A DNA stretch of 36,975 nt from a virus, in IMG/VR virus record IMGVR_UViG_3300029258_002761, positions 1-36,975 of that record. One strand, 5' to 3'. Positions 93 to 36,191 of this stretch are shown in pieces. Below the pieces are notes generated by a model. The model had not been told where the DNA came from, searched no databases, and saw nothing but the letters and a program-made list of their open reading frames with translations. A program made the position numbers and the translations under genes. Every line of letters begins with the position of its first letter. Positions within the stretch are counted from its first letter, which is position 1.

Positions 93-350
93 TTAACCGA
101 TTTCTTTTGGTTTTGTTGGATTTTCATAAGCAGTTAGAACCTCCTTTAACTTTTTAATATAGTTATTAAGTTCAATAATATACTCTTCTAAAGTTTTTGT
201 ATAAGCATCTTTAAATATTTTTATTTCTTCTGAATGTTTTTTATATAATTTATCTTGTTCTTCACATACTTTATGAGCTTGATAAGAACCTAAGAATCCT
301 CCAAAAGAAAGACAACCTAAAACAAGAAAAGATAATAAAATATTTTTCAT
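93..350 (-). CDS. Small membrane-anchored coiled-coil protein
   Basis: The 85-residue product starts with a hydrophobic segment (about residues 4-22) that contains VLGC, a weak lipobox-like sequence, followed by a charged helical stretch likely to form a coiled coil (about 30-75). An N-terminal anchor with a helical outer domain resembles spanins or small envelope proteins, but there is no family match I recognise. It follows the 101-residue gene by 3 bases and has a GGAG site 8-9 bases upstream, so the two are probably translated together. Function unknown. Confidence 0.65.
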   Translation of the reverse strand: MKNILLSFLVLGCLSFGGFLGSYQAHKVCEEQDKLYKKHSEEIKIFKDAYTKTLEEYIIELNNYIKKLKEVLTAYENPTKPKEIG

Positions 351-353
351 AAT

Positions 354-659
354 TTATTTCTCCTGCAATTCTTTAAGATCTTTATACAACTCATTAAATT
401 CTATGGCGGTGTCCTTTCCAAGATAAGAGGCTTTACAAAATACTTTTAAGGCTCTGCATGCATCTCTTTCTTCAACAGAAAAATACGGAGCCTTGCATGT
501 TTCATTAATGCTTTCGCAGGTTCCTTTAACGATCATATCTGTTGTTTTTATGGCATTGTAAAGAGACGAGTTACAGCCAAATAAAACAACCCCAAACCAA
601 ATGATTACAGCCATACTCAAGGTTGCGATGACCATCCAATACATAAGTTCCTTTTTCAT
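354..659 (-). CDS. Small membrane or lipoprotein-like protein with Cys residues
   Basis: The 101-residue product has an N-terminal hydrophobic stretch (about residues 7-28) ending in LFGC, which could be a lipoprotein cleavage site or simply a membrane anchor. The outer part carries four further cysteines (about positions 48, 55, 68 and 75), suggesting disulfides outside the cytoplasm. An AAGGAG site lies 6 bases before the ATG. It is the upstream partner of the 85-residue anchored protein. The pair might be a two-component spanin or a surface-exclusion protein; that is inference only. Confidence 0.65.
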   Translation of the reverse strand: MKKELMYWMVIATLSMAVIIWFGVVLFGCNSSLYNAIKTTDMIVKGTCESINETCKAPYFSVEERDACRALKVFCKASYLGKDTAIEFNELYKDLKELQEK

Positions 660-670
660 GTTAATCTCCT

Positions 671-1135
671 TTATTCTGTTATACCAAGGTTATCAAAAAA
701 CTTATCAGCAAAGTTACCAGCTTTTTTCATGCTGTGTTCGGGCTTGTTTTTGTTAACCTTTCTTTTTATACCATACTGCTCAAGTACTCTGTTAATACCT
801 ATTTTAGTTATCTTTCCCCCTTCCTTTTCATACATAGTATATACGGCAATGACAGCCTTTTTAACATAATCTGGATGAAGATTAAGCACAGCACAAGTCC
901 ATGCAAACGTTCCTGTTTTGTTATAATCCATCTTATCTTTAAAAACCATTATATATGCTTTTTTTTGTTCTATTTTAGGATAATCAGCCGTTGCTGGTGG
1001 TATAAATATATCATATATTAATGATACGAGGTATTTTCTCCAAAACTTGTGATATTCATCGTCTTTGCCTTCTTCCCAAAGGATACGCTCATTAATTCCT
1101 CTTACCCTTGTGCTTCCTATTTCACTGTAAAACAT
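671..1135 (-). CDS. Hypothetical early protein
   Basis: A 154-residue soluble, mildly basic protein with predicted helices and no motif I recognise. The C-terminal third (about 95-150) is rich in Lys and helical, compatible with nucleic acid binding but not diagnostic. Its ATG overlaps the stop of the upstream 71-residue gene by one base (TAATG), so translation is likely coupled. Confidence 0.6.
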   Translation of the reverse strand: MFYSEIGSTRVRGINERILWEEGKDDEYHKFWRKYLVSLIYDIFIPPATADYPKIEQKKAYIMVFKDKMDYNKTGTFAWTCAVLNLHPDYVKKAVIAVYTMYEKEGGKITKIGINRVLEQYGIKRKVNKNKPEHSMKKAGNFADKFFDNLGITE

Positions 1136-1350
1136 TAAACATTGCCTCGATATTTCTTATTAAGGTGTCTGCCGTTTAATATTCCAAGCCTGTACCATAC
1201 ACATTCACTATCATAAATATATGGGGATTTTATCATTAAAGGGCATATATCGCATCTTGCTGAAAATCTTTTTTCTTTGTTCGGCCAATACTTATTACAA
1301 ACCTTTCTTATTTGTGATACCGTCATGTTTTTAATTAGTATTTCTTTCAT
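1135..1350 (-). CDS. Small Cys-containing hypothetical protein
   Basis: A 71-residue basic protein with cysteines at 18, 33, 36 and 50, the middle pair as CxxC. A small zinc-binding fold is possible. The start overlaps the preceding stop as ATGA. It lies in a run of small early proteins of the sort that often act on host functions, but nothing in the sequence names a target. Confidence 0.6.
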   Translation of the reverse strand: MKEILIKNMTVSQIRKVCNKYWPNKEKRFSARCDICPLMIKSPYIYDSECVWYRLGILNGRHLNKKYRGNV

Positions 1351-1769
1351 TTAATTTTTTCCCCTTTTAAGGAATAAATCTCGAATGATGATGACGCTGA
1401 CCCTGCCTTCATTTTTCCAGAACATGGCCAAATTCTAAGAAGGCCACTTTTTGGCAAACAATCAATAGACCATCCAGACGGTGGTATTTCATTAGGGACT
1501 CGGCCATATTTCTTTAACCAATTATCACCATAACCGCCAATTCCATCTATATGAATCACATCACTACATCCAGATAGACGGCATATTGGCGTGTTCCCCT
1601 TTATAGCAACAAAATCCATACACCTATATCCACTATCATGTAAATCTTTTGCTTTGCCGGGGATTATAACCATACTGTTAAATACAACCGGAGTACTCCA
1701 ATCTTTGCGATAAGGAATAGATTCAAAATCTTTTTTTGTCATTTCATTAACTTTTTTTTTAATTTCCAT
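1347..1769 (-). CDS. Phage hypothetical protein of a recurrent family
   Basis: I start the 140-residue protein at the ATG at 1769, one base overlapping the resolvase stop, because AAAGGGG lies 6 bases upstream; a GTG one codon earlier is less likely. The core has a string of Gly, Cys and aromatic residues (CRLSGCSD, about 63-70; GGYGDNW, about 79-85). I recall similar proteins in unrelated phages with the MTKK-F-PYR opening seen here at residues 10-21, always without a known function. Its position next to a RuvC-like enzyme suggests a DNA metabolism neighbourhood only. Confidence 0.65.
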   Translation of the reverse strand: MEIKKKVNEMTKKDFESIPYRKDWSTPVVFNSMVIIPGKAKDLHDSGYRCMDFVAIKGNTPICRLSGCSDVIHIDGIGGYGDNWLKKYGRVPNEIPPSGWSIDCLPKSGLLRIWPCSGKMKAGSASSSFEIYSLKGEKIK

Positions 1770-2248
1770 CACAATCCCCTTTCTGCCATTATTTGCCTGC
1801 CATATTCCGCAATTAATAATGCTTCTGCCCTGCCATCATGTTTCTTTTCAATAGGCGCATCCGGCCAAATAGCTTTAGCCATCATAATCGATTTAGTCTT
1901 GTCTTTATCAAGTCCAAGGTATTTCTTCCACCCGGGTAGATCGTTGTCTTTGTTTCGGTTTTTTGGATATACCTCATAGATTTGGCATTTATTTATAGAA
2001 TACTCGGCTAATATCTCGGCAATCATTAACGCTCTCTCGTAATACATACCCATTGTTAAGATACTCTTTGGTGATGCGCCCCTGAAAGGCATTACCTTTT
2101 CAATAAAAACCGATGTTGCATCATATCGTTTTTTAACAAAAAGGGCGGATTTAACTCTGTTAGGCATATCAATTACACTAAAATATTCGCCATTATCAAA
2201 TATATATCCAATCGCCCCTTTTCTGCCTGAATCGATTCCTATTATCAT
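1769..2248 (-). CDS. RuvC-like Holliday junction resolvase
   Basis: The 159-residue protein has the RNase H-like fold signature of phage RuvC-type resolvases: an N-terminal IIGIDSGRKGA strand with Asp6, a central acidic residue in FIEKVMP (Glu50), and a C-terminal HDGRAEALLIA helix with Asp138 and Glu142. These carboxylates would bind two metal ions to cut four-way junctions. Length fits phage family members. Resolution of branched DNA before packaging, and after ERF-mediated annealing, is the likely role. An AAGGAT site precedes the ATG, which overlaps the upstream stop as ATGA. Confidence 0.9.
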   Translation of the reverse strand: MIIGIDSGRKGAIGYIFDNGEYFSVIDMPNRVKSALFVKKRYDATSVFIEKVMPFRGASPKSILTMGMYYERALMIAEILAEYSINKCQIYEVYPKNRNKDNDLPGWKKYLGLDKDKTKSIMMAKAIWPDAPIEKKHDGRAEALLIAEYGRQIMAERGL

Positions 2249-2442
2249 GGGTTATCCTTCTTTTTAGTGGTATATAATTCATATTCTGGAGCTATCCAAA
2301 TATGGAAGCAAATCCAATGAAATGCCCACAAATGATCATGATAAACTTTCGGTTTCCAATTCCACCAAAAAACATTTATACGGACTTTAATTTCTATCCC
2401 GCCAATCTTACAACCGTTATATTTACCTCTTGGCCACTTCAT
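2245..2442 (-). CDS. Trp-rich hypothetical protein
   Basis: A 65-residue basic protein unusually rich in Trp, His and Tyr in its middle (WKPKVYHDHLWAFHW region, about 29-44). I chose the ATG at 2442 because GAGG lies 5 bases upstream; an in-frame GTG at 2448 is the alternative. No family recognised. It sits between the resolvase and the fibronectin-like membrane protein. Confidence 0.5.
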   Translation of the reverse strand: MKWPRGKYNGCKIGGIEIKVRINVFWWNWKPKVYHDHLWAFHWICFHIWIAPEYELYTTKKKDNP

Positions 2443-2449
2443 ACCCACC

Positions 2450-2896
2450 TCAATTAATATTAATAACTATCTGCACAGACAATTGTAAATTTGTAGGGCT
2501 TCCGGGCTTAAAGGCAAACGTATGGCAAACAATATTCGAAGGATCACTTTCAAGGCCGCCTTGATCAAATGCCGTTAAATAAAAGCACACTTCTTGATTA
2601 TCAGTTACCGTCATGTCAACCTGGGTTGTCTCTGTGCCTGCCGGTATTTCTATAATTACTGCATTAGGTTCAGACTGATTATATAGCCGATATCCAGCAA
2701 GATCGGTTTCTTGATTGGCGTTCCATTCAAAGGTTAATCTTTGATTCTGCTGGACTTCCTGTGCATCGGCTATTGCCGCCCATACGCCGATAGCGACAAG
2801 AACAAATCCGGCCACAAGTAATATATTGCCAATGGCCCTAACAACATTTAGACAATAAGTATTTTTTTCTTTCTCGGTTAGATATTTCTTTTTCAT
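2450..2896 (-). CDS. Membrane-anchored fibronectin type III-like protein
   Basis: The 148-residue protein has a charged cytoplasmic N-terminus, one transmembrane or signal segment (about 21-45), and one extracytoplasmic fibronectin type III-like domain (about 50-135). The pattern FEWNANQETDLAGYRLY, then a VCFYLTAFDQGGLES stretch and SNIVC, is typical of the beta-sandwich found in secreted proteins of environmental Proteobacteria and Desulfobacterota. Such a domain binds proteins or glycans. Expression from the early region and an anchor suggest an envelope role such as superinfection exclusion, but this is inference. A GGAAAT ribosome site precedes the start. Confidence 0.75.
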   Translation of the reverse strand: MKKKYLTEKEKNTYCLNVVRAIGNILLVAGFVLVAIGVWAAIADAQEVQQNQRLTFEWNANQETDLAGYRLYNQSEPNAVIIEIPAGTETTQVDMTVTDNQEVCFYLTAFDQGGLESDPSNIVCHTFAFKPGSPTNLQLSVQIVININ

Positions 2897-2899
2897 GGT

Positions 2900-3175
2900 T
2901 TATTTCCTTTCCCCGCATGGACAAACGATTTCCTTTACTTCTATCATTGTTTTGTTTCCATATCCAAACCTTGACCCTTCATTACACCAGGAATCAAAAT
3001 TCTCAAATGAGAAATGGGAATCCATCATATTAGGATCAATATCGACTTTCAGCTTGACGCCCTTTTTCCAATAATCTTGATTCTCTTGGTTGGTATATAT
3101 CGTTTTTGTTAATATGTGGCCGATGTAAAAACCTATAAAAATCCCTAAAAAAGCAATTAATATATCGGTTTTCAT
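2900..3175 (-). CDS. Small single-pass membrane protein
   Basis: A 91-residue protein with an N-terminal membrane helix (about 5-25) and a soluble part that ends in CPCGER, with another Cys near residue 64. An AGGAG site precedes the ATG, which overlaps the stop of the YopX gene as ATGA. It is followed at once by the fibronectin-like membrane protein, so the two envelope proteins may be co-translated. Function unknown. Confidence 0.6.
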   Translation of the reverse strand: MKTDILIAFLGIFIGFYIGHILTKTIYTNQENQDYWKKGVKLKVDIDPNMMDSHFSFENFDSWCNEGSRFGYGNKTMIEVKEIVCPCGERK

Positions 3176-3546
3176 TTCTTCTCCTTTTCATCTAATAATA
3201 TCATATTCTCGTAGATATTGCCGATGACTTCAATATTGGATGATATAAGACATTCCATATCAGCCCACAATATTCCCCGCATACTTATTTTTTGTGGATT
3301 CGGATGTCCTACGCCCCAATCCGCAATAACAATATCCCCCTCATAAATCTCTTTGCCGTTACAATCTTTGAGGCCGGTGAACTGCATAAGGATAAAGCGT
3401 TCAGCTTCAGAATCAAATGTGCCAATAGCGAAGCCACCACGCTTGTTAGTATTCTTTATAAAAACATGGCTGGACACCTCAATTAACTTTTCAGGCATCC
3501 AGTTTTTCATCACCTTGTCCCAAGCCCTAAACTTAATCTCTCTCAT
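3172..3546 (-). CDS. YopX family protein
   Basis: The product matches the YopX family of phage proteins: it opens with REIKFRAWDK, has a central QFTGLKDCNGKEIYEGDIV segment and ends in a VIGNIYEN motif. YopX proteins are common in phages and have a beta-barrel N-domain; their role is not established. I start at the ATG at 3546 (124 residues), because AAGGAGAAGAA lies directly before it and it overlaps the upstream stop as ATGA; the in-frame ATG at 3564 would add six residues that are only the translated ribosome site. Confidence 0.9.
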   Translation of the reverse strand: MREIKFRAWDKVMKNWMPEKLIEVSSHVFIKNTNKRGGFAIGTFDSEAERFILMQFTGLKDCNGKEIYEGDIVIADWGVGHPNPQKISMRGILWADMECLISSNIEVIGNIYENMILLDEKEKK

Positions 3547-3767
3547 TTCTTCTCCTTCACCCATACGTTTAAATAACCATAGCCAGCTTGCATTACATTC
3601 ATTTTTGTTACTTTTTTACACTTTTTCATGATTGGACAATCTTTTTCTTTACAATCAAAATTCAATGCTTTTAAATCACAAAGTATGTCACAAAGAACCG
3701 CCCCATATTGAGATACGTATTTAAAGCTACAATATTCCCTAAATTTTCGATATGACATTAAGTACAT
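3543..3767 (-). CDS. Cys-rich hypothetical protein
   Basis: A 74-residue basic protein with cysteines at about 13, 26, 30, 39, 44 and 50, including CxxxC and C(x4)C spacings, so a metal-binding mini-domain is plausible. AAGGAT lies 7 bases before the ATG; another ATG three codons on is possible. It is translationally coupled to the YopX gene. Confidence 0.55.
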   Translation of the reverse strand: MYLMSYRKFREYCSFKYVSQYGAVLCDILCDLKALNFDCKEKDCPIMKKCKKVTKMNVMQAGYGYLNVWVKEKK

Positions 3768-3817
3768 AGTAAGATCCTTTTTTAAATAATAATAGCTTAT
3801 TTTTGATGTTTGGGGCG

Positions 3818-4006
3818 TTAGGATTGATTTTGTTGTTCTTGGAGAACGCCGTCATCAACCCCGTTTTCATATTGTGCATCCATACATTTTTGACATGGGC
3901 TAACTACTATTCCCGATCCCCACCGTGTTGTTTTAGTTTCAGATTGGCCACAAAGCCCTTCTCCACATGAACACCAAACCTCAATATCTATGCTTATTTC
4001 AGGCAT
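3818..4006 (-). CDS. Small zinc-finger-like protein
   Basis: A 62-residue acidic protein with CSCGEGLC near residues 12-19 and CQKC near 38-41, two Cys clusters that could bind zinc. Two adjacent ATGs occur; the second (4006) is better spaced from GGGAG. The gene overlaps the end of the upstream 62-residue gene. Similar short Cys-cluster proteins recur in phage early regions without known function. Confidence 0.6.
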   Translation of the reverse strand: MPEISIDIEVWCSCGEGLCGQSETKTTRWGSGIVVSPCQKCMDAQYENGVDDGVLQEQQNQS

Positions 4007-4187
4007 CATCTTCTCCCTTCATGTCGATTATCATTTCTCTCAACTTCCTATTTTCCTTTTTAAGCTCCCCAATCTTCTCATAAGGACATCCCTTTCCCGG
4101 CATATATTTTGTCCACTTAACGGTTGAATATATACATGATATGCCGGTGGAGTCGATAATCGGACATTCAGTGCAAAACTCCATCAT
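3999..4187 (-). CDS. Small Cys-motif protein with C-terminal coiled coil
   Basis: A 62-residue protein with CTECP near the start, two further cysteines (18 and 34), and a charged helix (about 38-58) likely to form a short coiled coil. AAGGGG lies 7 bases upstream of the ATG. It overlaps the end of the 55-residue gene before it by 20 bases. No function can be assigned. Confidence 0.55.
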   Translation of the reverse strand: MMEFCTECPIIDSTGISCIYSTVKWTKYMPGKGCPYEKIGELKKENRKLREMIIDMKGEDDA

Positions 4188-4335
4188 TGTTTATCCCCTT
4201 TCTTCTCTCTATTAATTTCTTATATTCCAGCCAAGTGTATCTAATACAAAAATTAATTATATGTTCTTTCTTTGAAAACCCTGGAAGTTGTAACCATTTT
4301 CTTAAATCTTCTGTCATATCTTCAATTTTCGTCAT
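4168..4335 (-). CDS. Small hypothetical protein after the helicase
   Basis: A 55-residue reading frame fills the gap between the helicase and the next Cys protein: it begins MTKIEDMTEDLRKW and includes a basic helix ending LEYKKLIERRKG. The ATG is 14 bases inside the helicase 3' end and the stop overlaps the next gene, a typical packed phage arrangement. The ribosome site is weak, so reinitiation from the helicase is likely. It could be a helicase partner because of its place, which is inference only. Confidence 0.6.
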   Translation of the reverse strand: MTKIEDMTEDLRKWLQLPGFSKKEHIINFCIRYTWLEYKKLIERRKGINNDGVLH

Positions 4336-5572
4336 GGTAAATTCCTTCCTCGATCATCTCTTGAGTATTACGATTATAATCAATTTGATATTTATAACCT
4401 GCTGGCCCGAATCTGTTTTTTCTGCATTCCAATAAATGTAATGCCCCATCCCTCTCGAAGTGAAGCCAGCCGTCTGAAATGTGCGCCATTTTCTTTGATT
4501 CTGCTAAGTTTCCTTCAGCATTTACCTGACAAAGAATAACACCGTGAATATCCATTCTTTTTGAAACGTCACGGAGTAATTTAACCCATCGGGCAAACCT
4601 CTCATCCCTTCCTTCTTGACCTTTAAATTCGTCCCTTACGATTTCCCCTATATAATCGAGAATCCAAAACTTTATTTCTTTCGTAAGGGCGTATCTTTCT
4701 ATCATTGCACAAACATCATGAATGTCCCTTGGATTATTGTCGGATACATAAAGAGGTGCTTTTTTATAAAGAACAAGGGATTTATCAACAATTTCGTTCA
4801 TGATGCCGGCCTTTATATTTCTTGAGCTTATTCCTGTTAAAATAGATAAAAATCTATCCTCAACATCGGAGGCACCCATTTCCAAAGAAACGAATAATCC
4901 CGGCACATTGTCTTTAATTGAAATGTTAGATAACCAATTTACGGCCATGCCGGTTTTCCCATGTCCAGACGGACCCGACAATAAAGTTACCCTTTTAGGC
5001 ACCAAACCGCCAAAATGGTGGTCTAAATGCACAAACCCTGTGCGGAAGCCCTCTATCGTATCTTTTTGCGACTGACGTTGAATTTGCCGCTCAAATATGC
5101 GGTTTGCAGAATCATTGCCAGAATAGATTTTGCCTTTTTCTCGCCTTCCACTGACGGCTATATCGGCCAATTCATTAAAAAGTGCCTGCTCATCTTCTAC
5201 ACAGCCAATTTGTTTTTGAATTTTATATATACCGTTTTGGAGCTTTCTTCGCCTTGAAAAGGATAAAACTTTTTGTAAAGGCCATGATAAATTTCGGTAT
5301 AGATCGCTTTGTTCAACTAGGTTGGCAATTTCACCATGATATTTTCCGCATTTTTCTGCTATGGCCGCAAAATCTATTTTTCCAGTTTGTATATACAAAT
5401 CTCTGGTAACTCTGTAAATCTCTTGATGCGTTGTATTGTAAAAATCATCTGGTCTTAATTTCTCTTGAATAGATAGAAAATAATTATTGTAATTAAGAAG
5501 TATTTTTCCGAGTTCTATCTTTTCGGCTTCCTCTGGATATAAAAGTTTTTTCTCGTTCGGAGTGGTAAACAT
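4322..5572 (-). CDS. DnaB-like replicative helicase
   Basis: The 416-residue protein has a DnaB N-terminal helical domain (about 8-105), a linker, and a RecA-type hexameric helicase core. Visible motifs are Walker A GPSGHGKT (200-207), the H1a SLEMG region with Glu231, Walker B FWILDYIG (302-309), motif H3 LCQVN (about 347-351), and CRKNRFGPAG (about 383-392) with the arginine finger. It would unwind the phage replication fork 5' to 3' using NTP, loaded by the organizer gene just upstream. Length is near that of short phage DnaB proteins. AGGAG precedes the ATG. Confidence 0.93.
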   Translation of the reverse strand: MFTTPNEKKLLYPEEAEKIELGKILLNYNNYFLSIQEKLRPDDFYNTTHQEIYRVTRDLYIQTGKIDFAAIAEKCGKYHGEIANLVEQSDLYRNLSWPLQKVLSFSRRRKLQNGIYKIQKQIGCVEDEQALFNELADIAVSGRREKGKIYSGNDSANRIFERQIQRQSQKDTIEGFRTGFVHLDHHFGGLVPKRVTLLSGPSGHGKTGMAVNWLSNISIKDNVPGLFVSLEMGASDVEDRFLSILTGISSRNIKAGIMNEIVDKSLVLYKKAPLYVSDNNPRDIHDVCAMIERYALTKEIKFWILDYIGEIVRDEFKGQEGRDERFARWVKLLRDVSKRMDIHGVILCQVNAEGNLAESKKMAHISDGWLHFERDGALHLLECRKNRFGPAGYKYQIDYNRNTQEMIEEGIYHDEN

Positions 5573-5581
5573 AAAGTTCTC

Positions 5582-6295
5582 CTAATAGCAAACATCATAT
5601 TTTTTTTTGTTGTTAATTAACGAGTCTTCATCTTCCCATCTTTTCCCATTCAAGTAAGATGAAGGATGTGGACAAAACTGGCCATTGTCTTTTGTCCAGT
5701 CTTCCGAGTCTTTTTTGTTTTTAATGTCGAGAATTATAATTTCTATCAACTTGACATCCGGCTTTAGTTTTTTCCAGGCTTTTAAGGCAGATTGCTTGTT
5801 TACTTTTTTTGGATAACTTTCCCAGAAATGCTTGAACGATTCGTCATATATATTATTATTATTTTCATTCTTTCCATTATTATCATTCTTGTCTGTGCCC
5901 CCTTGCGTTCTCGATGCGTTCTCGATGCGTTCCGTTTCCGTTTCATATGCGTTACGCTTGGGGTCGTAACTCTCGTAATTTATTACCTTTATCCGTGTCG
6001 TTATCGTTTCATTTGCGTACACAATTTGGTTCATCCTTTGTAACAGGTCTAGGAACCGTTTTACCTTTGTCTTACCCCAGCCCCATCGCCTGCCCCATGT
6101 TTTCATGCTCTTTAAAGATTCTCCATAATTACAATATAAAATTTTCATTCCAAGCATTACTTTTTGAGGTTCGTACGAGTGCTGTGACTCCATCAAAATA
6201 TCGATCCAGGCTTCATATTTAGAGAATACTCTTTTTTCTCTATAAAATTCATGATCTTGAATTTTACGCCAGATAGCTATATAGCCTCTATGCAT
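5582..6295 (-). CDS. Replisome organizer / replication initiation protein
   Basis: The 237-residue protein has an N-terminal winged-helix-like part (about 1-110, opening GYIAIWRKIQDHEFY) as in phage replisome organizers, a low-complexity Asn/Glu linker (about 120-148), and a C-terminal domain with FWESYPKKVNKQSALKAWKKL and CPHPSSYLNGKRWED, a pattern seen in DnaT/DnaD-like phage replication proteins. It likely binds the origin and recruits the DnaB-like helicase, whose gene begins nine bases downstream. The ATG follows a short GGGGCAACA and lies just after the cloverleaf element at 6312-6400. Confidence 0.85.
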   Translation of the reverse strand: MHRGYIAIWRKIQDHEFYREKRVFSKYEAWIDILMESQHSYEPQKVMLGMKILYCNYGESLKSMKTWGRRWGWGKTKVKRFLDLLQRMNQIVYANETITTRIKVINYESYDPKRNAYETETERIENASRTQGGTDKNDNNGKNENNNNIYDESFKHFWESYPKKVNKQSALKAWKKLKPDVKLIEIIILDIKNKKDSEDWTKDNGQFCPHPSSYLNGKRWEDEDSLINNKKKYDVCY

Positions 6296-6311
6296 TGTTG
6301 CCCCAAAAATA

Positions 6312-6400
6312 AAAAAAGGCCATTAGATTTGTGCCAACCAGGAGGACGCCTGGTTCCTCTTTCGAGGCCCCCTTTCGGGGCAAATCTAATGACCTTTTTT
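6312..6400 (-). ncRNA. Cloverleaf-shaped structured RNA candidate
   Basis: Read on the minus strand, a 20-bp outer stem (6312-6331 with 6381-6400; the inner 14 bp are mixed sequence with one G-U pair, the outer 6 are A-U) closes a four-way junction with three hairpins. These are 6369-6372/6377-6380 and 6356-6359/6364-6367, both with GAAA loops on the minus strand, and a 7-bp stem 6336-6342/6349-6355 with a 6-base loop. A run of seven U follows. GNRA loops form only on the minus-strand RNA, which sets the strand. It lies between the zinc-ribbon gene and the replisome organizer. It could be a terminator or attenuator, a small RNA, or an origin structure. No known family recognised; it is not a tRNA. 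Confidence 0.7.
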
Positions 6401-6483
6401 GTAAGTCGAATTATCATATTTTAGTCCCGTTTTGATTGGCATCTTAATAAATATCAAATCCCTTATTTCTTGTCAAGCATTAT

Positions 6484-6642
6484 TTATTTCTCATTGGTAG
6501 CAATAGATTCGTTTTTTAAGGGCCGGACTCGCTTTTTATCCCAATAAGGGCTATTACATCCAGGGCATACAGTTGGCCGGTTTTCAGTCCTTGGTATCCA
6601 TGTATGATCACATCTTAAGCAAGTGTATTTTGGTATATTCAT
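6484..6642 (-). CDS. Small zinc-ribbon protein
   Basis: A 52-residue protein with Cys8-x2-Cys11 and Cys26-x2-Cys29 around a short beta-turn, then SPYWDKKR, the usual layout of a small zinc ribbon of the kind often annotated in phages and plasmids as a DNA- or RNA-binding protein. AAAGGAT lies about 6 bases before the ATG. It is part of the leftward operon, 11 bases after the excisionase-like gene. Binding nucleic acid is likely; the target is unknown. Confidence 0.8.
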   Translation of the reverse strand: MNIPKYTCLRCDHTWIPRTENRPTVCPGCNSPYWDKKRVRPLKNESIATNEK

Positions 6643-6653
6643 GATGATCCTTT

Positions 6654-6836
6654 CTATTTTTGTAGTTTTTTAATCTCTCGTTTATAAGCCTTCACATCTT
6701 TTAAATAAAATCTCCAGTATCGGCCTTCCTGCCATCCAGTGAGCTTTCCTTTTCTGGCTAAAAAGATGACATCGTCAGGGCTGCAGTCAAGGAAGTGGGC
6801 TACGTCTTTACTTCTTAATATTGTGTTTGGCTTCAT
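6654..6836 (-). CDS. Excisionase/MerR-like helix-turn-helix protein
   Basis: A 60-residue basic protein with the short winged-helix plan of the excisionase (HTH_17) family: LRSKDVAHFLDCSPDDVIFLARKGKLTG forms the helix-turn-helix and the WRFYLKDVKAYKRE segment the wing and last helix. Such proteins bind DNA and act as excisionases or small regulators. No integrase is visible here, so a regulatory or architectural role is as likely. The ATG overlaps the pentapeptide gene stop as ATGA. Confidence 0.85.
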   Translation of the reverse strand: MKPNTILRSKDVAHFLDCSPDDVIFLARKGKLTGWQEGRYWRFYLKDVKAYKREIKKLQK

Positions 6837-7513
6837 GTATTCTCCAATTCTTTTAATACGGAAACCCCGGCTTTGATTAATTTTTTATACGCAACATTAA
6901 ACTCTTTATTAGGGCATCCTAGTTTTTGGGCTGTTTCAAAATCCATAGACAACCATTCTTTGTTTGTGCGATATTCGCAACCTATTTTAGTTTTTTCTTT
7001 TTGTATATATAAAGAATATCCTTTAAATTGAATGGCAATTAATCCTTTTGCTCCCCCGAGATAGGCTTCCGTGAGGTTGGCTCTCCCGAGATAGGCTCCA
7101 TCGAGATCGGCTCCCTCGAGATCGGCTCCCTCGAGATAGGCTCCCCCGAGATAGGCTCTCCCGAGATCGGCTCCCTCGAGATTGGCTCCCTCGAGATAGG
7201 CTCCCCCGAGATAGGCTCCCTCGAGATCGGCTCCCTCGAGGTTGGCTCTCCCGAGATAGGCTCCATCGAGATAGGCTTCCGTGAGGTTGGCTCCCCCGAG
7301 ATTGGCTCCCGAGAGATAGGCTCTCCCGAGATTGGCTCCCCCGAGATCGGCTCCCTCGAGATTGGCTCCCCCGAGATTGGCTTCCGTGAGGTTGGCTCCC
7401 CCGAGACTTATTTTTAATTCACAAGCCTTTTCTACACATAATTTAAAAGATTTAGTTTCTAATTCTAATATGATTTTACCTGAAAATCTGTGTTTTATTT
7501 GAAATTTTTTCAT
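6833..7513 (-). CDS. Pentapeptide-repeat protein (large copy)
   Basis: The 226-residue protein has an N-terminal domain (about 1-37), some 23 consecutive A(D/N/Y)LxG pentapeptides (about 38-153), and a C-terminal domain with IQFKGYSLYIQ and CEYRTNKEWLS (about 160-226). The repeats form a right-handed square beta-helix. Family members such as Qnr and MfpA mimic DNA and bind gyrase; other members have unrelated or unknown roles, and here the role is unproven. The flanking domains match other phage copies of this protein, as I recall them. It precedes the excisionase-like gene (ATGA overlap). Confidence 0.9.
   Translation of the reverse strand: MKKFQIKHRFSGKIILELETKSFKLCVEKACELKISLGGANLTEANLGGANLEGADLGGANLGRAYLSGANLGGANLTEAYLDGAYLGRANLEGADLEGAYLGGAYLEGANLEGADLGRAYLGGAYLEGADLEGADLDGAYLGRANLTEAYLGGAKGLIAIQFKGYSLYIQKEKTKIGCEYRTNKEWLSMDFETAQKLGCPNKEFNVAYKKLIKAGVSVLKELENT
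7051..7410. repeat. 15-bp tandem DNA repeats coding pentapeptides
   Basis: The stretch consists of about 23 tandem 15-bp units of the type GAGATAGGCTCCCCC on the plus strand, varying mostly at bases that change the third and fifth residue of the pentapeptide. Being a multiple of three with a strongly biased unit, it leaves other frames open, which creates false long ORFs. A similar array is at 8563-8773. The two arrays are direct repeats flanking the ERF gene. Confidence 0.9.
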
Positions 7514-7516
7514 TAT

Positions 7517-8485
7517 TTATTCATCCTTTCCGAGAACTGCTTTTTCGGTTGGGCCAGTTAGCGGTTCTTGTGGCCTGTATGGTGGGTTGCTTGGATTTCT
7601 TAGTTTCTTTTCGTCGGATGTTATTTTCCCTTCATTCCACCGCCAATCAATAAACTTATTCCAAAAGCCTTGAATATTCTTTTCTGCCCTTCCTTTTATT
7701 TCTTCATTGCTGTACATATTATTGTTTCTTAATACATCCAAGTAACAAACAACATCATATTTTATTGAATCCTCGGTATAAAATTTATGATTTTCTCCTA
7801 GAAGCTCCTTTTCTTGTTCTATTTTCATGGAAATAAGAGAATCAAAGTCTGTTTTGCCGACAGTATCAAGTTGTTCATCGATGGATTCTTGTAAAGATTT
7901 GGCAGGCGTTAAGTCTTCCAAGGCTTTAAATTTAGCCCCACATCCGCCTTTTTTTGAGAAGCATACATACCCACCCCCATATTCCTTTTTGCCTTTAATT
8001 ATTGAATTTTGGCCGCATTCAGGGCATACAGGCAGGGCACTCGTTGATTGTTTTGGCTTTGGTGCTTCTTTATTTTGTTCTTCTTTGTAAGATTCCCTAT
8101 TATCTTGTGTGTCGGCATCCTTGGTGTCGTCTATTCCAAATAATCCATTTAATGCGTATTTGCGTGCATATGATGAAGTTGCCCCGGTTACCTGGGCTTC
8201 ATCCATCCCCTTTTTTTGTTCCGGCTCCCTTGCATAGGCTGTTGATGATATTGATTCTTTACCATCTCTTGATGTTAGGGTTGCCGTGGCTTCAATGTAA
8301 TGACGGCCAGCTATTTCAATTATTTTATCAGATATTGTTATGTAACCGTCTTTACCTAAAGCCTTTTTTACAGCAGATAGGATATCTTCACAGGATCGGT
8401 AATGATATTTACCAAATGTATTATATTGTGATTTTGGTACTGATAGGTTTTGCTGTACTTTTATTATAAGATCGTGGATAGTCAT
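7517..8485 (-). CDS. ERF-family single-strand annealing protein
   Basis: The 322-residue protein carries the ERF core in its first 125 residues, with QYNTFGKYHYRSCEDI (20-35) and the hallmark TGATSSYARKYALNGLFGI (100-118) followed by an acidic run. It would anneal complementary single strands in phage recombination, as the Erf protein does in P22. A zinc-ribbon-like part with Cys154, 157, 175 and 182 follows, and the C-terminal region (about 195-322) is a variable, probably helical tail. AGGAG lies just before the ATG. It lies between two pentapeptide-repeat genes. Confidence 0.92.
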   Translation of the reverse strand: MTIHDLIIKVQQNLSVPKSQYNTFGKYHYRSCEDILSAVKKALGKDGYITISDKIIEIAGRHYIEATATLTSRDGKESISSTAYAREPEQKKGMDEAQVTGATSSYARKYALNGLFGIDDTKDADTQDNRESYKEEQNKEAPKPKQSTSALPVCPECGQNSIIKGKKEYGGGYVCFSKKGGCGAKFKALEDLTPAKSLQESIDEQLDTVGKTDFDSLISMKIEQEKELLGENHKFYTEDSIKYDVVCYLDVLRNNNMYSNEEIKGRAEKNIQGFWNKFIDWRWNEGKITSDEKKLRNPSNPPYRPQEPLTGPTEKAVLGKDE

Positions 8486-8494
8486 TATCTTCTC

Positions 8495-8980
8495 CTATTC
8501 TTTTCTTAAAATTCCATTAACAACTTTCCATCCAGGAATTTTTTCATCTTTTTCATGACGTTTGGCTCCCCTGAGATAGGCTCCACTGAGATCGGCTTCC
8601 GTGAGGTTGGCTCCCCTGAGATCGGCTTCCCTGAGATAGGCTCCACTGAGATTGGCTCTCCCGAGATAGGCTCCACTGAGATCGGCTCCCCAGAGACTGG
8701 CTCCACTGAGATTGGCTCCCCTGAGATTGGCTCCCCTGAGATAGGCTCCCCTGAGATCGGCTCCACTGAGATCGTAATTTTTCATTGACCATAAAGGAAT
8801 CAATTCGTTTCTAAATGCCCACCCAAACCATTTTCTTGTAATAGGATGTTTTAACATCATAAATTGATGTAATGGAGTCCATTCTTGTATTTCGTTCCCA
8901 TTTGGAAAGTTTTCAATAAAGAACTTAACAGCTTCCTCACATGCGTTAGTTTTTCGTAAACTTCCTTCGGTAATTTTCAT
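8495..8980 (-). CDS. Pentapeptide-repeat protein (small copy)
   Basis: The 161-residue protein has a non-repeat N-domain (about 1-68, with [17 protein letters not shown]) and about 13 pentapeptides of the form [10 protein letters not shown] (about 71-140), then a short basic tail. It resembles the larger copy in the repeats but not in the flanking domains, so the two are separate genes rather than a recent whole-gene duplication. The repeats should form a beta-helix that may mimic DNA. AAGGAG precedes the ATG. Confidence 0.9.
8563..8773. repeat. 15-bp tandem DNA repeats, second array
   Basis: About 13-14 tandem 15-bp units (plus-strand type GAGATCGGCTCCACT) code the pentapeptides of the smaller protein. 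The unit differs in its end bases from the array at 7051-7410 (CCACT or CCCCT here against CCCTC or CCCCC there), indicating each array expanded within its own gene. Reading frames are open on several strands for this reason. Confidence 0.85.
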
Positions 8981-8997
8981 TATTTTCTCCTTTTTTC

Positions 8998-9297
8998 TTA
9001 ATAAAGCTCGTGTAACCGGTCTTGATTGTGAAGTATGGCGTAATCATCGGGCAGGCATAGCCAGTCAACAAAATGTCTCATGCCGGAGTGGTTAGAAAAT
9101 CTTAAAATAATAAAATCTCCTGTTTTCCCGGTAAAATTAACATATATTTTATAAATGTACGGATAAACAGCCCCGGTCATATCCCCAAAAATTATTGTTG
9201 GCCTATTCCATTCTTCTATGTCAACCGATATAGATGTTTTTTCATATCCGGCCCATTTATATGCTCTTTCGATGTCTTTGATTAATTCCGTGAACAT
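8998..9297 (-). CDS. Hypothetical early protein
   Basis: A 99-residue soluble protein without a motif I recognise; it reads as mixed alpha/beta with several aromatic residues ([10 protein letters not shown], about 29-38; [13 protein letters not shown], about 76-88). AAAGGAG is well spaced from the ATG, which overlaps the stop of the 41-residue gene before it as TAATG. Confidence 0.6.
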
Positions 9298-9836: not shown

Positions 9837-9852
9837 TATTTTCTCCTGCCTT

Positions 9853-9903
9853 GGCTTGATTGGGCGTCTTTCGGGGCGATGACCGAAAGGCCCCGCCCAA
9901 GCC
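9853..9903. other. GC-rich bistable hairpin in the divergent control region
   Basis: Two foldings exclude one another. In the first, 9868-9874 pairs with 9883-9889 inside an outer stem 9861-9866/9894-9899 and 9853-9856/9900-9903, about 17 bp in all. In the second, CGGGGC at 9872-9877 pairs with GCCCCG at 9890-9895. The element is GC-rich against an AT-rich genome and sits in the leader of both divergent transcripts. Base 9868-9877 (CTTTCGGGGC) is identical to 6372-6381 in the cloverleaf element. A regulatory leader, a protein site or an origin are all possible. Confidence 0.55.
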
Positions 9904-14845: not shown

Positions 14846-15916
14846 ATGGAACTCGAAGATTTAAAAGCCAGGAACAAGGAAGAAGAAGAAAGGATTAAAA
14901 AGGCCAAGGAAGATGCTAAAGCAAAGGAGGATGCGGAGCTGGAAGACGATCCTGAAGAAATACAGGATGAAGACATTAAGCCAGATCCAGAAGAGATTTT
15001 AGACGATCCAGAGCCTTTAAAAGAAGAGGGGCAAGAAGAACCTTCCGATGAGTCTGAAGAATCCGTCCTTGAAGATTGGCAAAAATCCGAAGAGGAAGAA
15101 GCAGAAGGTGACAAAGAGTCTAAGGAAGTACCATTAACCGCGCATATCAAGATGAAGCAAAAACTTAAAAGCCGTGTTTCTGATAAAGAAGAGGAGATTC
15201 AAAGATTAAAAGAAGAAAACGCTAAATTAAAGCAGGGAACGGCAGCTCCTGAAAAATCAAAGTTGCCTAAAATGCCCAAGCAGGAAGATTTTGATACTGA
15301 CGAAGAATTTGAAACAGCATTTACAGATTATCAAAATCAGCTTGCAGAGTATAATTTTCAAAAGATAGAACAGAAGAAAAAGCTGGAACAACAGCAAGAA
15401 CAGCAAAAACAATATCTTTCAAAAGGGCTGGAATCTCATTATGAAAGGGCTGCAGAGCTTGTCACTAAAAACAAGATCGATCCTGAAGTGTATAAACAAA
15501 CTGACGAAATTGTTCGTGATGGGTTTAAAAATGTACGTCCTGGAGATGGTGATTTGATCGTGGATCAGATTATAGCCAGATTGGGCGAAGGCTCTGAAAA
15601 GGTTATGTTCTATCTTGGAAAGAATAAGACTGCTTTAAAAACTGCAACTTCTTTAATTGAAGAAGATCCAACTGGCATAAAGTTAGCCATGTATCTTGGT
15701 AAGCAAGCAGAAAGATTTACTAAACCAACCAATACGAGAAGTCAAGCCAGAAAGCCTGCAAAGAGAGCTGATGGCAATTTGCCGAAAGGTTCTCAGGCTG
15801 CAACCAAACTGTTAAAAGCTTATAGAAAGGCACATAAGGCTAAAGATGTACAGCAGGCTATTGACATTAAAAGGGATGCAAAGGCTAATGGCATTGACGT
15901 ATCTAATTGGAAATAA
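14846..15916 (+). CDS. Scaffolding protein
   Basis: The 356-residue protein is strongly acidic at the start (about 30-90, many EE/DD), has a coiled-coil middle (LKSRVSDKEEEIQRLKEENAKL, about 106-127; QQQEQQKQ, about 195-205), and a basic C-terminus (KPAKRADGN, about 313). Position between portal and coat, size and make-up match the P22 gp8-type scaffold that templates the procapsid and then leaves. AAGGAG lies before the ATG after an 85-base gap. Confidence 0.85.
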   Translation: MELEDLKARNKEEEERIKKAKEDAKAKEDAELEDDPEEIQDEDIKPDPEEILDDPEPLKEEGQEEPSDESEESVLEDWQKSEEEEAEGDKESKEVPLTAHIKMKQKLKSRVSDKEEEIQRLKEENAKLKQGTAAPEKSKLPKMPKQEDFDTDEEFETAFTDYQNQLAEYNFQKIEQKKKLEQQQEQQKQYLSKGLESHYERAAELVTKNKIDPEVYKQTDEIVRDGFKNVRPGDGDLIVDQIIARLGEGSEKVMFYLGKNKTALKTATSLIEEDPTGIKLAMYLGKQAERFTKPTNTRSQARKPAKRADGNLPKGSQAATKLLKAYRKAHKAKDVQQAIDIKRDAKANGIDVSNWK

Positions 15917-15931
15917 AGGAGCTTATTAGAT

Positions 15932-17281
15932 ATGGCAACCACAGGTAAAATAGTAGAAGTAATGTTCGAGTCTGCTCTTGAGACTTATGAGCATCAAATG
16001 CAGATGTTGCCACTGGTATCTTTTGAGGAACCAGAAGGTGCAACTATGCAAAATTCCAGTAACTGGATTTGGCGTCCGGTTCAACAGCATGCCCCTTTGA
16101 TTGCAGGTTGGGATTTAACCGGCCTGGAAACGGATATCATTGAAGAGACATACCCGGCTGTTTTGGGTACTCCGAGCAATGATTTTATTAAACAAAGGGC
16201 TGATGAATTAAGGACAGAGCTTTTCTGGAGACGGAGAGGCGAACAGTCCGGTAAAAAGCAGGCAACTGAGCTTAACCGCTTGATTGCAGCCGCAGTAACT
16301 ACCCAGGGTTCTTTGTTTTATCGGTCTAATACCACTTCAGGGTATAATTTTATAGCTGAAGCACAGGCCTTGATGAACGAAAGACAGGCGCATCAGTCCC
16401 AAAGGTGTTTTATTCTTAATGACCGGGATAATCTTACCTACGGGCAAGATTTGGCTGCCAGACAGACCCTTCAGGGTAGGCCTGAACAAACATGGGCAAC
16501 AGGTCAAATAGGTCAGAACGTAGCCGAATTTGATGTATATGTAGGCTCCTATCTGCCTTCACTGGCTGGTGGTGCAGACCCTGCTACTACGGTAACGGCT
16601 ACGGTTTCTGAAGCTCCAGAAGCTGGCTCTGTATCGGCTACCGGTGTTGTAACCAATGTGGATTACAGGACTGCAACTATAGCAGTTACTGACTCTTCAG
16701 GCTACAATATCGGGGATAAAGTTACCTTTGCCAATGGTGGAACTACGGTTAAATCGGTAGGTCTGGCAGATAAGACCAATACCGGCCAGGCTATGACGTT
16801 CACCATTGTGGCCAAGCCTACAGGTACAAGTGTAACTGTATATCCGAAACCTATTGCCATTAATGATCCTGCCCTTTCAACCCTGGAGCAAGCATATGGG
16901 AATATTCATACTCGTATTCTTGTAAATGCCACCATGAACCGACAGAACATTAATTCCAGCGCAAAGGCCAACATTTTCTTTGATAAGACTGCTATCGAAG
17001 TTCTTGGCGGGACTATACCGGCAGAGCTTTTTAAAGATTATGACGGAATGAAAGTTGTTCAAGCCACAATGTCAAACGGCCTTAAGATGTACATGATTTA
17101 TGATGGTGACATTGCCCAGATGACTTTCAGGTATCGTATCTTTACATGGTATGGTATCACTGTATGTAATCCTTCAAATTGCGGGGTAGCTGTGACTTAC
17201 AGTGCTACGAGTTCGAGTTCAAGTTCCAGTTCTTCGAGTTCCAGTTCTTCGAGTTCCAGTACTTCAAGTGCAGCCGCTTAA
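15932..17281 (+). CDS. Major capsid protein, P22 coat type, with poly-Ser tail
   Basis: The 449-residue coat protein has the P22 gp5-type sequence, with ETYEHQMQMLPLVSFEEPEGATMQ at the start, NWIWRPVQQHAPL and a long central part containing an inserted beta-domain (about 225-305, as the telokin-like insertion of P22 coat). Four hundred-odd copies would form the head. The last 25 residues are unusual: TYSAT, then 17 serines (427-443), T-S-S-A-A-A. Codons in the tail vary, and two and a half copies of a 15-bp repeat lie at 17222-17260, suggesting growth by repeat slippage. AAAGGAG precedes the ATG. Confidence 0.93.
   Translation: MATTGKIVEVMFESALETYEHQMQMLPLVSFEEPEGATMQNSSNWIWRPVQQHAPLIAGWDLTGLETDIIEETYPAVLGTPSNDFIKQRADELRTELFWRRRGEQSGKKQATELNRLIAAAVTTQGSLFYRSNTTSGYNFIAEAQALMNERQAHQSQRCFILNDRDNLTYGQDLAARQTLQGRPEQTWATGQIGQNVAEFDVYVGSYLPSLAGGADPATTVTATVSEAPEAGSVSATGVVTNVDYRTATIAVTDSSGYNIGDKVTFANGGTTVKSVGLADKTNTGQAMTFTIVAKPTGTSVTVYPKPIAINDPALSTLEQAYGNIHTRILVNATMNRQNINSSAKANIFFDKTAIEVLGGTIPAELFKDYDGMKVVQATMSNGLKMYMIYDGDIAQMTFRYRIFTWYGITVCNPSNCGVAVTYSATSSSSSSSSSSSSSSSSSTSSAAA
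17222..17260 (+). repeat. 15-bp tandem repeat coding poly-Ser
   Basis: Two full copies of AGTTCCAGTTCTTCG (17222-17236 and 17237-17251) and a third partial copy (17252-17260) lie inside the coat gene. Each codes SSSSS. The length could vary between isolates in five-residue steps. Confidence 0.85.
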
Positions 17282-35588: not shown

Positions 35589-35847
35589 TATTAAGGTGGC
35601 TCTCCCTATAACAACAGGGACATCAGCCCTTGGATTGGGCCAATGTTTAAACCTTATACAGCAATCAGACATTACAAAGATTGCAACCATTGTGGGTATT
35701 GTCTCTTCTATTGTACTGTTGATCACGCATTCTATTAAAGACTTCATTGAAATACGCAAGGGATACCTTGAAAATAAGAAACTAGAGATGAATAATGAAA
35801 TGTTAGAGAAAAAGATTCAAAGTAAAGAGAAAAAAGAGAAAGAATGA
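35545..35847 (+). CDS. Holin-like protein
   Basis: A 100-residue protein with two hydrophobic segments (about 18-38 and 46-64) and a charged C-terminal coiled coil rich in Lys and Glu, typical of class II holins. The endolysin follows directly (ATGA overlap). I use the TTG at 35545, which has AAAGGAAAG before it; an ATG at 35557 would shorten it by four residues. It would make the membrane hole that lets the endolysin out. Confidence 0.65.
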   Translation: MKNEMISIGKSIFLDIKVALPITTGTSALGLGQCLNLIQQSDITKIATIVGIVSSIVLLITHSIKDFIEIRKGYLENKKLEMNNEMLEKKIQSKEKKEKE

Positions 35848-36191
35848 GCTATTTTAAGCTGGAAGAATTTGCCTGTACTTGTTGTGGTAAGAAAGAAATG
35901 CACATCGAATTACTGGAAATGCTTGACCTTGCTCGTTCTCTTTCAGGAAAACCCATTATTATAACTTCTGGATATCGATGCAAGCATTACAATAGAGAAA
36001 TAGGCGGCTCCGATACTTCCAGCCATTTAGAGGGCCTTGCCGCTGATATCGCCTGTACCGATTCTAGTAACCGGTATAATATGCTTAATGCTTTAAAGCT
36101 TGCCGGATTTACCAGAATCGGTATTAATAAGCGGTTTATTCATGTGGATATTGATAAGAATAAAGATCAACAGGTTATTTGGGTGTATTAG
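35844..36191 (+). CDS. Endolysin, peptidase M15 family
   Basis: A 115-residue zinc peptidase of the M15 type: SSHLEGLAADIA (59-70) gives His61 and Asp68, and HVDID (100-104) gives His100, the three zinc ligands, and Asp102 is near the active site. TSGYRCKHYN (41-50) is also typical. It would cut peptide cross-links or stems in peptidoglycan. Length is that of the short catalytic domain with no wall-binding domain. It ends at the convergent junction, with a 3-4 bp overlap to the next minus gene. Confidence 0.92.
   Translation: MSYFKLEEFACTCCGKKEMHIELLEMLDLARSLSGKPIIITSGYRCKHYNREIGGSDTSSHLEGLAADIACTDSSNRYNMLNALKLAGFTRIGINKRFIHVDIDKNKDQQVIWVY

Follow-up and report, generated by a model that had tools for sequence, protein, structure and literature searches.

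What is the function of the highly structured segment that lies just before a replication initiation gene at positions 6312-6400 of the window, by which we mean the whole 36,975-nucleotide stretch of viral DNA that was analysed? The main genes from 93 to 9297 are all leftward, and the segment stands among them in the gap between a small zinc-ribbon-like ORF (6484..6642, minus strand, Pfam match below the cut-off) and repO (5582..6295, minus strand), which encodes a replisome-organizer or replication-initiation protein (PHROG 9474, 270 and DnaD-like 2514). This gap of 188 nt, from the ORF stop at 6484 to the repO ATG at 6295, is the largest inside the leftward gene series, aside from the gap above 9297. 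The repO product matches DnaD-like and primosomal proteins, and SPP1 gene 38 is among its relatives. Directly downstream of repO comes the gene for a DnaB-like replicative helicase (4322..5572, minus strand); a first reading, made from the sequence only, had placed the element upstream of initiator and helicase genes, and this position was correct.

Folding of the minus-strand RNA 6290-6420 gave −50.2 kcal/mol, as compared with −30.6±3.5 for shuffled sequences (z −5.6), and none of 200 shuffles was as good. The element is thus far beyond chance, and the outcome that would have refuted the sequence-only reading, a fold no stabler than its shuffles, was not observed. Read leftward from 6400 to 6312, a 20-bp outer stem leads into a four-way junction whose other arms are three hairpins. 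The two arms of the stem, AAAAAAGGTCATTAGATTTG on the 5′ side (6381..6400, minus strand) and CAAATCTAATGGCCTTTTTT on the 3′ side (6312..6331, minus strand), form 20 contiguous pairs on the minus RNA, 19 of them Watson-Crick and one U-G. Inside it, and on the same strand, follow hairpin 1 (6369..6380, CCCC(GAAA)GGGG), hairpin 2 (6356..6367, CCUC(GAAA)GAGG) and hairpin 3 (6336..6355, AACCAGG(CGUCCU)CCUGGUU, 7 bp with a 6-base loop), the linkers of the junction being 0, 1, 0 and 4 nt. A U-rich tract, UUUUUUUAUUUUU (6305..6317, minus strand), is found 3′ of the outer stem, its first six U being paired with the A-tract. The fold therefore returned the same outer stem, three hairpins and junction that had been drawn from the letters, and the two GAAA-loop hairpins on the minus strand and the subsequent U-run were each borne out.

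Stability was also scanned along the window in 7374 segments of 110 nt, on both strands, and the 900 most stable were then z-scored. The three most stable segments among the 7374 correspond to the cloverleaf element on its minus strand. Among the 900, the best z was again that of the element on the minus strand (−7.1), and the second that of the element on the plus strand (−5.2).

The element has the feature expected of an intrinsic terminator, a stable hairpin with a U-tract immediately 3′ of it. The plus strand is also terminator-like, with A6, the stem and T6, so that the element is terminator-shaped both ways. It thus resembles bidirectional intrinsic terminators, which have an A-tract, a GC-containing stem and a U-tract on both strands. 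It departs from intrinsic terminators in that a 20-bp stem with a four-way junction and three hairpins replaces the one short loop, and in that it stands before a Shine-Dalgarno sequence rather than after a gene. The earlier statement that the form is unlike phage terminators needs correction: the element is built from the components of an intrinsic terminator, with a branched crown and with A and T tracts on both sides.

Three strand asymmetries favour a leftward reading of the element, and back the direction proposed in the sequence-only reading. The U-G pair of the outer stem on the minus strand becomes a C-A mismatch on the plus strand, leaving the helix unbroken on the minus strand alone. 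The tetraloops read C(GAAA)G on the minus strand, and such loops are typical of terminator hairpins. Finally, the terminal tract is longer, U7-A-U5 on the minus strand versus T6 on the plus strand. The fold energy is also lower on the minus than on the plus strand, and leftward is the direction of the surrounding genes.

The element is tightly joined to the start of repO. From its end at 6312 to the ATG at 6295 there are 16 nt, and the end of the U-tract at 6305 directly abuts the GGGG (6304-6301) of the putative repO Shine-Dalgarno, GGGGCAA (6298..6304, minus strand). This leaves no room for a promoter between the terminator and repO, and the message for repO and the dnaB-like gene must consequently cross the element, unless the later gene starts inside repO. 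Upstream of the element, a weak motif match suggests a local leftward promoter in the candidate region 6440..6476 (minus strand), where TTGACA is present at 6476-6471 with no clear −10; an alternative motif, ATGCCA-18-TATGAT, is closer to the stem. Two ORFs are present in the leader, one of 18 codons (6442-6386) that ends in the 5′ arm and one of 46 codons (6417-6277) that spans the cloverleaf, neither of them with a convincing Shine-Dalgarno.

With moderate confidence, we think it probable that the leftward-read element is an intrinsic terminator, branched at its crown, whose role in the leader is to attenuate repO-dnaB. RNA polymerase moving leftward, either from a local promoter near 6476 or from a main leftward promoter near 9.7 kb, would copy the A-tract and the 5′ arm. 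The three inner hairpins would fold at once, the gap would shrink and the 20-bp stem could close. The transcription complex would then halt in the U-tract, leaving a short leader RNA and only a small amount of message for repO. Some polymerases may read through, by antitermination, by a trans factor or by chance, in which case synthesis of RepO and the helicase would be limited or delayed.

Ribosomes on the upstream ORF are not expected to disable such a terminator: the outer stem starts 83 nt past the stop codon at 6484, and termination efficiency at tR2 in E. coli is maximal beyond approximately 30 nt from the stop codon (PMC4824070). As to how read-through might be controlled, no strong antiterminator that would compete with the cloverleaf emerged from the window, and the 9 bp by which 6441-6433 and hairpin 3 are complementary are, by our estimate, at about chance level. 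No recognised antitermination gene was present among the proteins scanned, and there was no boxA enrichment, boxA-like sites being at chance level.

The nearest precedents for a leader attenuator of this kind would be phage P4 and IsrK. In P4 immunity (CI RNA, seqA/seqC), premature termination keeps the replication genes off (PMC4825925), and the likeness lies in attenuation upstream of phage replication genes. P4, however, has a processed trans RNA that pairs with two leader sites, and none was identified in the window. IsrK of Gifsy-1 is a phage RNA that ends at an intrinsic terminator and is also part of a read-through message with altered translation (PMC4825925). Its arrangement of promoter, short RNA, intrinsic terminator and read-through message with structure-dependent translation (PMC4825925) is the one proposed here, although its downstream gene is antirepressor-like and that of the window a replication initiator, and the two have no sequence relation. 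Stop signals in leaders are a known type of control; unusual here are the branched shape and the possible reach to the ribosome-binding site. If the leader gates repO-dnaB, phages with SPP1-like or DnaD-like organizers would control the start of replication via attenuation at the RNA level, in a way similar to P4, except that the stop signal would be physically joined to the initiator's ribosome-binding site.

The reach to the ribosome-binding site comes from the 5′ strand of hairpin 1 and the outer-stem UUG just before it (6383-6377), which are complementary to the repO Shine-Dalgarno and can pair with it instead. The leader segment involved, UUUGCCCCGAAAGG, is composed of the 5′ part of hairpin 1 and the last bases of the outer-stem arm; its partner around the Shine-Dalgarno is AUUUUUGGGGCAAC, and the duplex has an energy of −17.6 kcal/mol (p 0.006, 0.6% of shuffles as good). 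A corresponding duplex in one other phage leader, L113, reached −20.8 kcal/mol (p 0.014, 1.4%), and pairing was not significant in the ten other leaders; as twelve leaders were tested in all, the pairings in the window and in L113 are leads, not proof. On the full window RNA, the cloverleaf is favoured over the Shine-Dalgarno-paired state by 11 kcal/mol, and the pairing would thus come into play only where something, such as a ribosome, a protein or a second RNA, keeps the outer stem from forming. In transcripts that continue into repO, this pairing may form and possibly act as an added brake on translation. It can be imagined further that the leader is a dual switch, either a clover-shaped terminator or a 5′ part lying on the repO Shine-Dalgarno, by which one RNA sets both transcription and translation, and that analogous leaders of unrelated sequence arose in other phages with DnaD-like organizers, L113 being the clearest; we regard this as a rather unlikely extension.

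Relatives of the element itself were scarce. Rfam gave no match above the gathering score, permissive thresholds added chance matches only, and membership of a known RNA family is not supported. The sole sequence relative in IMG/VR was contig 3300017989_000648, which carries an identical element and, being 99.99% identical over 10.5 kb, is the same phage. The spaced outer arms occurred in no other IMG/VR viral contig, and a scan of IMG/VR for the double GAAA core pattern returned the same phage only. Similarity searches at the DNA level against phages and plasmids gave short chance matches only. Terminase relatives have head genes in common with the window and not the replication module, and brought no relatives of the element. 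One GTDB match to the spaced outer arms (L069) was discarded as chance, as it folds as a plain hairpin with no crown or U-tract.

The shape is also rare. Approximately 1.76 Mb of phage-locus sequence, counted by strand, was searched for an outer stem of at least 10 bp enclosing two or more hairpins and followed by a T-run. Several dozen loose matches came back, and most of these folds were AT-rich or imperfect. None combined three GC-rich hairpins in a clean junction with an unbroken stem as long as that of the element, the list being judged by reading and left unscored. A simple terminator scan, restricted to loops of 3-8 nt, did not pick up the cloverleaf, and literature searches on branched or cloverleaf terminators brought nothing relevant. 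If the proposed reading is true, the element shows that a terminator is able to bear a four-way-junction crown.

Sense terminators were encountered before repO in some other phages, closer relatives of the gene having been obtained by alignment-based search. In L095 (39% RepO identity), a nested hairpin is followed by UUUUUUU and, 6 nt on, by the presumed start ATG (z −4.75). In L096/L097 (41%), an inner hairpin is enclosed by a 12-bp stem, and U5 follows (z −2.84). In L113 (26%), a hairpin with U7 ends 13 nt before the presumed start ATG at 1908 (z −3.49) and competes with a 17-bp upstream hairpin (−33.6 versus −39.5 kcal/mol), so that this leader looks like an attenuator. All these terminators end within approximately 30 nt of repO, and their sequences are unrelated to that of the window. 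The closest RepO relatives, L093 (58%) and L094 (63%), both similar in their N-terminal parts, have no strong sense terminator. In a uniform scan, for which L096 fell under the GC limit, three of 59 non-redundant repO leaders passed and most were without a terminator. Of 535 ORF starts taken from these loci as a control, 8 passed, three of the eight being those repO genes, which leaves a background of about 1%; this comparison was made only after the pattern had been noticed. A sense terminator before repO thus appears recurrent, not conserved, and the comparative support is modest.

Across 1765-1910 of L113, three competing hairpins can be drawn: one is the 17-bp upstream stem, another is CCCGCAAGG/CCTTGCGGG followed by T7, and the third, TTGGCCC/GGGCCAA, covers the Shine-Dalgarno. 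The L098 and L099 leaders look structured and yet are no stabler than shuffles (z −0.6 and −1.4). At 4322-4500 of L024 there is a multi-branched fold with a 12-bp outer stem and inner hairpins (z −4.4), which was not counted because it has no U-tract; it precedes a C-terminal RepO relative, and L026 is grouped with it. The end of the L060 stretch (15854-16105) has an inverted repeat of 91 nt that is possibly an assembly artefact.

The both-way shape of the element suggests another role, that of a bidirectional punctuation terminator whose main direction is rightward and which stops an antisense transcript started within repO, like λ tO/oop. We hold this to be unlikely. The T6 that follows the stem on the plus strand is the antisense terminator feature upstream of the initiator gene, and a GC hairpin preceded by A6 (an antisense terminator) stands 20-35 nt before repO in SL25 and in the Vibrio phages 1.116, 1.133, 1.108, 1.135 and F89. 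Such antisense-orientation terminators are rare in genome scans, with 3 to 9 per genome (SL25, 1.116, 1.135). In λ, O is the initiator gene that carries the origin; ATAAAAAACGCCCGGCGGCAACCGAGCG lies just before it, the oop RNA is ended there by tO, and pO affects replication (PMC3985674). SL25 has a pO-like motif, TTGAGT-17-CATAAT, ending at −2, an offset as in λ, and similar motifs end at −7 in Vibrio 1.116 (TAGGCT-17-TATAAT) and F89 (TAGGCT-17-TATATT). However, these matches score within the random range, no pO-like promoter was found at the repO start of the window, where the best antisense promoters were no better than those of random stretches, and the plus-strand stem has the C-A mismatch and the shorter T-run. 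λ tO is oriented for the antisense strand alone, whereas the element is oriented for the sense strand too, and suits it better. As terminators directly before the initiator gene recur in both orientations, the element could serve either. Oop-like antisense terminators before a DnaD-like organizer gene, some with a pO-like motif, were also seen in L070 (2430-2500), L071 (2420-2495), L075, L081 and L082.

It is improbable that the element is the end of a stand-alone, trans-acting small RNA of approximately 100-170 nt, started near 6476, for which the place before repO would be incidental or doubly used, as for IsrK. The candidate TTGACA promoter, the extremely stable 3′ structure with its U-tract and GNRA loops, and the precedent of IsrK in Gifsy-1 (PMC4825925) agree with this proposal; the absence of a clear −10 and of sequence conservation, known target or Rfam match speaks against it. 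A DNA-level palindrome, forming a cruciform or a single-strand fold at the replication origin, is very improbable. The palindrome does adjoin the initiator gene and folds well with DNA parameters (z −6.3), but the G-U pair, the GNRA loops and the U-tract are features of an RNA strand. Iteron-like direct repeats, two copies of TGCGTTCTCGA and ATGCGTTCC... (5903-5952), moreover lie beside an AT-rich stretch (5846-5890) inside repO, as in the λ record, where the origin is in gene O; this repeat region is the likely replication origin. The first reading had offered an attenuator, a small RNA or an origin structure; an attenuator or short terminated RNA fits the place, and the origin structure is not supported. 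Nor is a mobile palindromic host repeat that landed before repO, a proposal we find hardly credible. Its appeal is that a compact core is flanked by near-perfect terminal inverted repeats, but the element is single-copy in the window, its arms are absent as a spaced pair elsewhere in IMG/VR, the one GTDB match is a chance-like plain hairpin, and no target duplication was seen.

Other repeats were observed in the window. A strong inverted repeat, TTGGGCGTCTTTCGGGGC...GCCCCGCCCAA (9848-9903), lies between the leftward and rightward gene blocks. A long near-perfect hairpin (36041-36150, z −4.7 on the minus strand) is present within the ORF 35844-36191. Two pentapeptide-repeat-like genes with repeats at the DNA level (6833-7513 and 8495-8980) are found beside an Erf recombinase gene.
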